DNA of 32,054 nt from positions 1-32,054 of the forward strand of contig CANIEU010000021.1 of the NCBI GenBank assembly GCA_947466585.1, in the 5' to 3' direction. This DNA comes from Fibrobacterota bacterium. GTDB lineage: Bacteria > Fibrobacterota > Fibrobacteria > UBA11236. The notes beneath the pieces were generated by a model. The model saw only the letters and a list, made by a program, of their open reading frames with translations, did no database searches and had not been told where the DNA came from. Below, piece after piece: positions 3,704 through 6,129 of this stretch; within the stretch, counting starts at the first letter, position 1, and each line of letters starts with the position of its first letter. The translations under genes were made by a program, and so were the position numbers.

Positions 3704-4513
3704 ATGACCTACTCCCGTTCCACACTCTGTGCAGCCTTGCTGGTGGCCATGGTGTTTCATCCCGTGGCGGTTCGCGCCCAAGAAACACTTAGCTCGGTGC
3801 AACGCGAGCTCGACCGGGTCGAGCGCGAAACCGAGCGCGAAAAAGAATTGCACAAGCAGGAGCGCGCGCGCGCGGCGGAGTTCGATAAGCAGAAGGCTGC
3901 GCGCCTGGCCGCGCTTCAAGAACAGATCGTCGCGGCCGACGCGCGCATCGACAGCCTCAAGCAGCGCACCGAGGTGGAGCGCCAGCGCCGCGCCTCGCAG
4001 CGCGCGATCGCTACGCAGTTCCAGAACCGGCAAAAAGCCTTTCGCGCCAACCTCGATCGCGAGATCAAGGCCATGGCGGCCTGGACCGAATCCGATTTCC
4101 CCTATCAGCGCGATCGCCGCGTTTCGGAATGGAAAGAGCTGGCCGAAAGCAATCACGAAGAAACCCTTCCGGTGGAAGAAGTACTCGTACGCGTGTTCGG
4201 ATTGCTGCAGGGATCGCTCGACATCGGGTTCGATTCGGAAACCTATCCGGGCACCTACTCTACAACCAAGGGCGGCCAGTACGAGGGCGTGTACGTGCGT
4301 CTCGGCGCCGTCATGATGGCCTTCGCCTCCACCGACAACAAGGTGCAGGCGTACCTTGCGAAAACCCCGCAGGGTTACGTGTGGCGCGACACCGATCTTC
4401 CGTCGGGAGTTCAAAAAGCCATTTTCGAAGCCGTGCGTGTGGCCGAAGGCAAGGAGGCGCCGCGTTTGATTCCCCTTCCGGTCGAAGTGGCGTCGAAGGG
4501 AGGTGCGAAATGA
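3704..4513 (+). CDS. DUF3450 family periplasmic coiled-coil protein of a TonB-type system
   Basis: A 269-residue exported protein. The N-terminal signal peptide is MTYSRSTLCAALLVAMVFHP followed by VAVRA-QE. Next comes a long charged coiled coil (roughly residues 25-110, rich in E, R, K and Q in heptad-like spacing). The compact C-terminal domain contains SDFPYQRDRR and the Gly/Tyr-rich segment GTYSTTKGGQYEGVYVRLG, typical of DUF3450. Proteins of this family are encoded immediately ahead of TtpC/ExbB/ExbD/TonB genes and are thought to work in the periplasm with the energy-transducing complex; the mechanism is not established. It overlaps the next gene by ATGA and is the first gene of the operon. 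The start is uncertain because of a short tandem repeat carrying three extra in-frame ATGs. Confidence 0.85.
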   Translation: MTYSRSTLCAALLVAMVFHPVAVRAQETLSSVQRELDRVERETEREKELHKQERARAAEFDKQKAARLAALQEQIVAADARIDSLKQRTEVERQRRASQRAIATQFQNRQKAFRANLDREIKAMAAWTESDFPYQRDRRVSEWKELAESNHEETLPVEEVLVRVFGLLQGSLDIGFDSETYPGTYSTTKGGQYEGVYVRLGAVMMAFASTDNKVQAYLAKTPQGYVWRDTDLPSGVQKAIFEAVRVAEGKEAPRLIPLPVEVASKGGAK

Positions 4514-6129
4514 ATACGCCCTCCGCAAACCTTTTCTTCGGCAGACGGTTGACGGCAGACGGTAGATGGTTGAAAACGCAAACCGTTACGGATTCTTCAT
4601 CGTCTTCTCTACCGTCTACCGTCTACCGTCTACCGTCCCGTTCCTTCAGTGCAGCCCGCACGCTTCTCCTGTCGACGCTTCTCGTTGCGATCACCTTCGC
4701 CCCTTCGTTCGCGCAGGTCAAGGTCGACGATAAGGCCGATCAGGTCGAAGCGCTCAAGATCGAACTCGAACAGGCACGCCAGAACCGCGACCGCGCGCTC
4801 GCGCGGCGTTGGGAAGACAAACAGCGCGACACCGAGGCGCGCGAAAAGTTTAACCGCGATTACGACGAAGTCAAGAACAAGCTCGAACTGAAAAATCAGG
4901 AAGCGGATCGTCTGCACGCGGAGATCCAGCACTTCCTGAGCGATGCCGAAGAAGCGCAAGCCCGTGCCGAAGAAGAGCGCGTGCGTTTTCTGTCGCTGGC
5001 CTCCGCGCTGCGCGACAAGGCGCGCGACATCGCCGATCCGCTGCAGAAGTCTTTTCCCGCGCGGATTCCCGAACGCATCGCGGCGCTCAACAAGGTGCTC
5101 AAGTCCGCCGACGTGCGCCGCGACGCGCCGGGTGAAATCCTCGCCGACCTGATGAACTTCGAGCGTTCCGAGCTCGGGCTCACCCGCGAAATCTCCGTGG
5201 AGCGGCGCGGGTTTTTGCGCGCCAACAAGGAGCCGGGTGAAGGATTGTTCCTGCGTCTGGGCACGGTCAGCGCAGCCTATCAAGACACTTCCGGCCACGT
5301 CGGATTGTTGCTGAAGAATCCGCCGGAACAGTCGTTCACGGCGTTTGACTGGAAAGAGGAAATTCCCCTCAAGGCCTCGCGCGCACTTTCCGACGCCATG
5401 ACCACGCTCGACAAGGAGTCGGGAACGGTGGTGCTGGTGCCCGTGGACGTTCTGCTCACGCAAAACCTGGGCAAGGCCTACACGCAGGCAACCGACAAGG
5501 GATTCTTCGCCAAGGTGTGGGAGACGATCGTCGTCGGCGGCGTCTTCCTGATTCCGCTCGGCTTGATCCTCATCGCATTGCTCATCATCTTCTCGCGCAA
5601 GTTCTCGCAGCTCCGCCGTGTCAGCAAGGGCTCCGAGCTCTACGATGCCGCCTCCGCGAAGGTGGATGCGGGCGATATGGCGGGCGTGAGCGCGCTGCAC
5701 CGGAGATACCCGAAGAACTTCGTGCTGCGCATTTTCGATTCCATCGCCGCCCACCGTAATGGGGGTGATGCCGGCCGCACCGAGGCGGAAAAGTCCGCAA
5801 AGGAACTGCTCATCCGCGAGGTGCCGCGTCTGGAGGCTGGATTGACCACCTTGGCCGTGCTTGCCGCGGCAGCGCCCATGCTCGGCCTGCTGGGCACCAT
5901 TTCGGGCCTCGTGTCGATGTTCCAGGTCATCACCGAAATGGGCGTGAACGACCCCAAAATGCTCGCAGGGGGCATCGGCGAAGCGCTGGTCAGCACCGAG
6001 ACGGGTCTGCTCATCGCCATACCGGCGCTGCTCTGCCACAACTACCTCGCCAATCGGGTCGACGATCTCGTCGCCGAAGCCGAATACCGCGCCACGAAAA
6101 CCCTGAACACGCTCTGGCCCAAGGGGTAA
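4510..6129 (+). CDS. TtpC-like MotA/TolQ/ExbB proton channel protein with periplasmic coiled-coil domain
   Basis: A 539-residue protein if translated from the ATG that overlaps the previous stop. A signal peptide core (ARTLLLSTLLVAITFAPSFA, residues about 49-68) leads into a coiled coil (about 72-175) and a periplasmic domain. A first membrane helix follows near 337-363. The MotA/TolQ/ExbB domain spans about 440-517, with LAAAAPMLGLLGTISGLVSM and a final helix LLIAIPALLCHNYLANRV. This is the TtpC architecture, which in the Vibrio TonB2 system joins ExbB, ExbD and TonB for iron-complex uptake. Residues about 11-45 are encoded by a palindromic heptamer repeat, giving an unusually long segment before the signal peptide. 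After the repeat no ATG, GTG or TTG start exists before the hydrophobic core. Confidence 0.87.
   Translation: MNTPSANLFFGRRLTADGRWLKTQTVTDSSSSSLPSTVYRLPSRSFSAARTLLLSTLLVAITFAPSFAQVKVDDKADQVEALKIELEQARQNRDRALARRWEDKQRDTEAREKFNRDYDEVKNKLELKNQEADRLHAEIQHFLSDAEEAQARAEEERVRFLSLASALRDKARDIADPLQKSFPARIPERIAALNKVLKSADVRRDAPGEILADLMNFERSELGLTREISVERRGFLRANKEPGEGLFLRLGTVSAAYQDTSGHVGLLLKNPPEQSFTAFDWKEEIPLKASRALSDAMTTLDKESGTVVLVPVDVLLTQNLGKAYTQATDKGFFAKVWETIVVGGVFLIPLGLILIALLIIFSRKFSQLRRVSKGSELYDAASAKVDAGDMAGVSALHRRYPKNFVLRIFDSIAAHRNGGDAGRTEAEKSAKELLIREVPRLEAGLTTLAVLAAAAPMLGLLGTISGLVSMFQVITEMGVNDPKMLAGGIGEALVSTETGLLIAIPALLCHNYLANRVDDLVAEAEYRATKTLNTLWPKG
4540..4640 (+). repeat. Palindromic heptamer-repeat element inserted in frame at the 5' end of the TtpC-like gene
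   Basis: The left arm (4540-4569) holds four units of consensus GGTAGAC: GGCAGAC, GGTTGAC, GGCAGAC, GGTAGAT. The right arm (4608-4640) carries four units in the opposite orientation, as CTACCGT repeats. The arms are complementary over about 28 bases with few mismatches and enclose a 38-base A/T-richer loop. The whole element stays in frame. Tandem heptamers arranged as an inverted repeat look like a mobile or amplified REP/MITE-type element, or a folded mRNA control structure. It is not a CRISPR array: units are seven bases and there are no spacers. Confidence 0.8.

Follow-up and report, generated by a model that had tools for sequence, protein, structure and literature searches.

An in-frame heptamer-array inverted repeat in a ttpC-like gene of a Fibrobacterota bacterium as a likely gene-less copy of a dispersed S23p-encoding element

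Inverted heptamer arrays at the 5' end of ttpC

The window analysed here is a 32,054-nucleotide stretch of the forward strand of contig CANIEU010000021.1 (assembly GCA_947466585.1) from a Fibrobacterota bacterium. A TtpC-like gene (ttpC) occupies positions 4510–6129 on the plus strand, and by profile similarity its product consists of a DUF3450-like N-terminal part and a MotA/TolQ/ExbB C-terminal part. It is directly preceded by a DUF3450 gene, the stop codon of which overlaps the ttpC start in an ATGA (4510–4513, plus strand). The same overlap is present in three congeners, G001, G002 and G003, of which G003 is the closest to the window's own genome (G000, 2.24 Mb). A hydrophobic signal-peptide core (ARTLLLSTLLVAITFAPSFAQ) is encoded at about 4654–4716 on the plus strand, and upstream of it, in the ttpC frame, an inverted pair of GGTAGAC-type heptamer arrays is read directly from the sequence at 4540–4637.

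The left arm (4540–4569, plus strand; GGCAGACGGTTGACGGCAGACGGTAGATGG) consists of the four GGTAGAC-type heptamers GGCAGAC, GGTTGAC, GGCAGAC and GGTAGAT followed by GG. The right arm (4605–4637, plus strand) consists of reverse-complement heptamers, in which CTACCGT is repeated, and ends with CTACCGTCTACCGTCTACCGTCTACCGTC at 4637. The plus-strand loop between the arrays (4570–4604) is unrelated to the loops of other copies and includes an inner A-rich box, GAAAACGCAAA (4572–4582, plus strand), which corresponds to the family feature AACRCAAA. The best inverted repeat pairs 4544–4576 with 4605–4637, giving arms of 33 nt and a loop of 28 nt, and the insert accordingly has no gene of its own. The RNA of positions 4490–4680 has a predicted folding energy of –79.2 kcal/mol (z –5.96), equalled by none of 200 shuffled sequences. 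The palindromic heptamer element that a preliminary description had placed in frame near the 5' end of the TtpC-like gene is thus confirmed by the sequence and by the inverted-repeat test.

The preliminary description had further stated that no ATG, GTG or TTG exists between the insert and the hydrophobic core and that the insert must therefore be translated unless the start is a non-standard codon. The first statement is true, but the insert itself holds two in-frame TTG codons, one in the left arm (4549–4551, plus strand) and one at 4570–4572. Because the frame is open and no usable start codon follows the insert, the insert is probably translated, and the corresponding insert of G003 is open as well. 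Alternatively, translation may start at an in-frame TTG inside the insert. Use of the TTG codons at 4549 and 4570 as starts could make the N-terminal extension shorter than the predicted one.

That the segment is an insertion is borne out by G001 and G002, in which ttpC begins at the same overlap and encodes a comparable hydrophobic core directly after the start, without the insert. In G003, ttpC carries an insert at the same position that is built of a different heptamer, GGGGGAC, and is also in frame. This unit pattern has 36 matches in G003 and none in G000–G002, and none of 40 relatives, G003 included, has the 16-mer GGTAGACGGTAGACGG. Orthologues with the N-terminal segment but without the repeats were sought and none was found. 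It can hardly be credited that the segment is ordinary ancestral TtpC coding sequence, repetitive by chance. The frame is open in both G000 and G003, as ancestral coding sequence would be, but the segment is absent from G001 and G002, its counterpart in G003 is made of another heptamer, and the array recurs at numerous sites between genes. The ttpC insert has no clear target site duplication, and its site is not at a stop codon.

Dispersed heptamer families in the genus

A reading of the insert as a lone curiosity is not borne out by a search of the genome. The sequence GGTAGNNGGTAGNNGG has 140 exact matches in G000 (control, 0) and GGTAGACGGTAGAC has 21 (reversed control, 0), so that the insert is one copy of a large dispersed family. 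What remains rare, as had been claimed of the insertion, is its position inside an open reading frame: of the 34 inverted repeats with period 7 that the first 432-kb sample contained, 1 is so placed. The GGTAGAC copies read are composed of an arm, an unrelated loop and a reverse arm, and are mostly intergenic. They lie between convergent, divergent and tandem genes with no strong preference. Gene calls in the sampled stretches were made by a simple codon-score script, and totals for genomes, which are mostly draft assemblies, are pattern counts or derive from samples of stretches.

A unit-blind scan detected further heptamer families with the same plan, including GAAATNN, GAATGAT, GATAGTG and ACAGTTN in G000 and GTTGTTG, GGGGGAC, ACAGC-type and GTTGGGG units in G003. 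Arrays of period 7 number 47 in G000 and 68 in G003, as against at most 13 and at most 5, respectively, for other periods from 3 to 13, and arrays of period 14, the double of 7, number 40 and 26. Tandem 7-nt units are therefore over-represented relative to other periods, which is what characterizes heptamer simple sequence repeats of the STRR/LSSR type. The sampled stretches of G001 and G002 contain no heptamer arrays. Elements are carried by 57 of 428 intergenic regions in G000 and 76 of 366 in G003, samples that were partly picked for containing elements, by none of 99 in G001 and G002 together, and by none of the shuffled sequences examined with the same detector. Element density is about 30 per Mb in G000, in stretches sampled without such choice, and about 100 per Mb in G003, in stretches mostly sampled without it.

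Individual copies differ in shape. One G000 locus (L022, contig C18, 952–1064) has a left array of about 15 units, GGTAGAC and AGTAGAC mixed, opposite a short right arm. The start of contig C1 (L009) and the end of contig C6 (L018) of G000 carry the same element (GGTAGAAAGGGGTGGCTAGTAGATAGTGG...), and these contigs therefore probably adjoin, with the assembly broken at the repeat.

A comparison of G000 with G003 covered 42 intergenic regions that are syntenic and no shorter than 40 bp; both genomes are occupied in 4, only G000 in 1, only G003 in 9 and neither in 28 (Fisher p 0.026). Further sites shared by the two species were seen in addition to these. At sites occupied in both, the heptamer units differ and the pairing of the arms is kept. 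At several sites occupied only in G003, about 95–160 bp, loop included, stand at positions where the genes of G000 overlap or almost abut. An origin of every loop from ancestral intergenic DNA would suit some sites, such as L262 (position 11694), where a terminator-like sequence is present in both species, but fails where the genes of the relative overlap.

S23p genes between heptamer arms

The A-rich box AACRCAAA lies just inside the arms and faces inward on 19 of 192 sides and outward on none, and the sequence that flanks the arms externally is rich in pyrimidines on either side. Arms stand at a median of 4 nt from the stop codon on the stop side, and are also found near start codons.

Long copies in G000 (L251) and G003 (L269) contain one ORF between arms of these heptamer families. 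The ORF of the G000 copy belongs to PF05635, the 23S rRNA-intervening sequence protein (S23p), with 122.7 bits against a cut-off of 33.8 (E 9.5e-36). PF05635 is matched four times in G000 and four times in G003, but not in G001 or G002; thus, among the four genomes compared, both with arrays have S23p and neither without arrays does. Six of the eight S23p genes of G000 and G003 lie between inverted heptamer arms, with a different unit in each. The window insert shares its GGTAGAC arms with an S23p copy of the same genome (C1:90670–91165) and consists of the arms and the inner box of the family, without the gene. Because the long copies read lie between protein genes and not in 23S rRNA, they are intervening sequence (IVS)-like rather than IVSs in the strict sense.

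S23p is a small four-helix bundle protein for which no catalytic domain is known. Among solved structures, the nearest is PDB 2GSC, of protein XCC0516, a tag that we take to belong to the Xanthomonas strain with GGGAATC repeats. The heptamer unit is not simply fixed by S23p clade: units are shared among near relatives, yet GGTAGAC recurs in distant clades and a single clade has three different units. S23p has no match in phage records, and a phage origin was set aside. TIGR02436, tried as a further S23p model, gave no match anywhere and was uninformative.

Inverted, intergenic, multi-copy sequences are also typical of REP/REPIN elements moved by a RAYT (Y1) transposase, and repeats may be written by a reverse transcriptase in the manner of DRT10 or telomerase; DRT10 makes tandem-repeat cDNA (PMC12632851). 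The S23p of G000 moreover resembles bAvd (PF22296), the accessory protein of diversity-generating retroelements, with an E value of 3.1e-9, just under the curated cut-off. However, Y1_Tnp (PF01797) and RVT_1 (PF00078) are both absent from G000–G003 in searches that match five and three control genomes, respectively, although these profiles would miss a divergent enzyme outside the two families. DRT10 was rejected as the source of the repeats, the likeness to the bAvd retroelements ends at the missing RVT_1 match, and an origin of either kind is very improbable.

Hairpins of this strength could instead be functional intergenic structures that act in mRNA stability, termination or translation control and are held by selection, so that the sequence turns over and the structure stays. 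The arms near stop and start codons, the strong predicted RNA fold and the pairing kept at shared sites while the unit changes are what such selection would produce. However, many sites occupied in one of two sister species are unoccupied in the other, the samples of G001 and G002 lack the system altogether, convergent, divergent and tandem contexts are all used with no strong preference, and the S23p gene in long copies is left unexplained. We therefore regard selected hairpins as a distinctly unlikely account of the arrays.

S23p and heptamer arms beyond the genus

PF05635 is present in 33 of 39 genomes from many phyla that were picked solely for GGTAGAC arrays, in up to 23 copies, and absent from the other 6. 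As background, the family occurs in 23 of the 41 genomes searched from the class to which the window belongs and in none of 14 named controls. Because PF05635 is common in the class, the co-distribution outside the genus is weak and should be read as suggestive. The flanks of the genes give a more direct view. Among 33 S23p loci from G000, G003 and other phyla, inverted flanks score at least 14 in 30, of which 22 have period 7, and shuffled flanks of these loci reached a score of 14 in 0 of 165 cases. In a plasmid collection, 29 records, mostly cyanobacterial, match S23p and are annotated as "four helix bundle protein" or "S23 ribosomal protein". Of the 16 plasmid genes examined, 15 are flanked by inverted arms with a score of 14 or more (shuffles, 0 of 160), and the best period is 7 in 12 and 8 in 3.

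Variants of this arrangement were also seen. In other phyla, S23p stands between inverted arrays of period 8, 10 or 11 (L368, L372, L380, L381). Genome G004 has heptamer inverted repeats (e.g. TGCAAATTGAAAAC, L325/L326) and no PF05635 match; its arrays may be orphans or have another driver. In Natronospirillum operosum (L054, L118, L119, L126), GGTAGAC arrays are followed by near-identical inner sequence, so that the loop looks conserved between copies, and this genome has no PF05635 match either. Plasmids of Picosynechococcus (L393) and of Pseudanabaena and Anabaena (L398, L399) carry S23p elements inside CRISPR operons, between cas10 and the Cmr3-family gene and between cas6 and cas4, and relatives have cas6 and cas4 without S23p.

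Filled and empty sites on plasmids

Near-identical plasmid junctions were found with and without an S23p element, and the two versions differ by the whole element. In the Trichormus family, the filled site reads AAAAAG-TAAT-element-TAAT-TAACAAAT and the empty site contains AAAAAGTAATTAACAAAT. TCTA stands on both sides of the S23p element at a Nostoc junction and TTAG at an nrd site; the picture at a second Nostoc junction (TAATG, TTATG) is less clear-cut. Every plasmid S23p site compared is at the stop codon of a neighbouring gene. These junctions suggest that about 4 bp are duplicated upon insertion, a provisional figure because few sites were compared, by visual reading, and some of their flanks differ. 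The sites read include none from the window's genus with identical flanks. Plasmid pC052_E of Nostoc sp. C052 (L413, 595–728) carries a broken copy, in which the left heptamer arm and the 5' portion of S23p are retained and the right arm is missing; other plasmids have this junction either empty or filled. Short elements could originate from broken copies of this sort.

These sites bear on whether the arrays are simple sequence repeats that grew in place by replication slippage, with arms matched by template switching and S23p as a bystander in repeat-prone genomes. Heptamers are known as over-represented bacterial repeats (PMC4692102, PMC4679880), and the units vary between copies and between species, as slippage would predict. 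However, slippage does not readily place one unit at dozens of unrelated loci, conserve the inner box, enclose S23p within the arms or produce whole inserts of about 95–160 bp, loop included, where the genes of a relative touch. Empty sites that differ by the whole element are likewise hard to reconcile with growth in place, and slippage is considered an improbable origin of these arrays.

Interpretation and relation to known systems

The arms, the dispersed family, the S23p gene in long copies, the co-distribution within the genus and the filled and empty plasmid sites were observed directly, and the ttpC insert is likely to be a short, MITE-like derivative, itself non-autonomous, of a dispersed mobile element that is IVS-like and encodes S23p. 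A full element of about 450–600 bp would comprise inverted tandem-heptamer arms, A-rich inner boxes and S23p (PF05635) as its one gene. Short copies would derive from long ones by loss of the S23p gene, keeping the arms and inner boxes. Judging from co-location and co-distribution, S23p would be needed in trans for their spread, and the arms may be cut by RNase III as in IVSs. Copies lie mainly between genes near stop codons, where an RNA hairpin between cistrons may be tolerated. The ttpC copy is proposed to survive inside an ORF because it keeps the frame, and it would be read as an N-terminal extension ahead of the signal peptide.

The Coxiella burnetii 23S rRNA IVS has a 28-bp terminal stem, is cleaved by RNase III in vitro, contains an S23p ORF and adjoins GACAGAT heptamers (PMC4990558). 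The elements described here resemble it in having an S23p-type ORF within complementary termini, tandem heptamers by the ORF and a paired stem. They differ from it in lying near protein genes, in having heptamer arrays on both sides, in being mostly gene-less and in occurring many times per genome. Like MITEs, the short copies are gene-less with inverted termini, and a short duplication is seen at related full elements. They depart from MITEs in that tandem heptamer arrays form the termini, that the gene of the full element is S23p and not a known transposase, and that different copies have unrelated loops.

Dispersed intergenic heptamer arrays, mostly of about four units, have been described in Xanthomonas (GGGAATC) and Nostoc (GGGGA(T/C)T), with 70–75 inverted heptamer pairs per Xanthomonas genome, and the present arrays are similar in both dispersal and inverted pairing. 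They were published as repeats that may form quadruplexes, generally with no association with mobile elements (Rehm 2015, PMC4692102). TAACTGA arrays in Beggiatoaceae and others are intergenic, lie near start codons, are patchy across phyla and have been proposed as translation control sites (MacGregor 2015, PMC4679880). In contrast to the inverted arms found here, they are direct for the most part, and the genome studied contained one inverted repeat (PMC4679880). No statement of a link between heptamers and S23p was found in the open-licence literature, although it may have been noted elsewhere.

A wider reading, to which we give about an even chance, is that S23p is the mobility protein of compact transposable elements that cross phyla, have inverted heptamer-array ends and integrate between genes, at stop codons. 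Copies of them that lack the gene would make up much of the so far unexplained bacterial heptamer repeats, and the rRNA IVS would be the case that landed in rRNA. If this is true, two old puzzles would be joined, namely the scattered heptanucleotide repeats, so far regarded as simple sequence repeats, and the S23p of rRNA IVSs. The element so described would be able to sit in operons at stop codons while leaving genes unbroken, and the ttpC copy would be an example of such an element becoming part of a protein N-terminus. Whether S23p mobilises its own arms would thereby become concretely testable.
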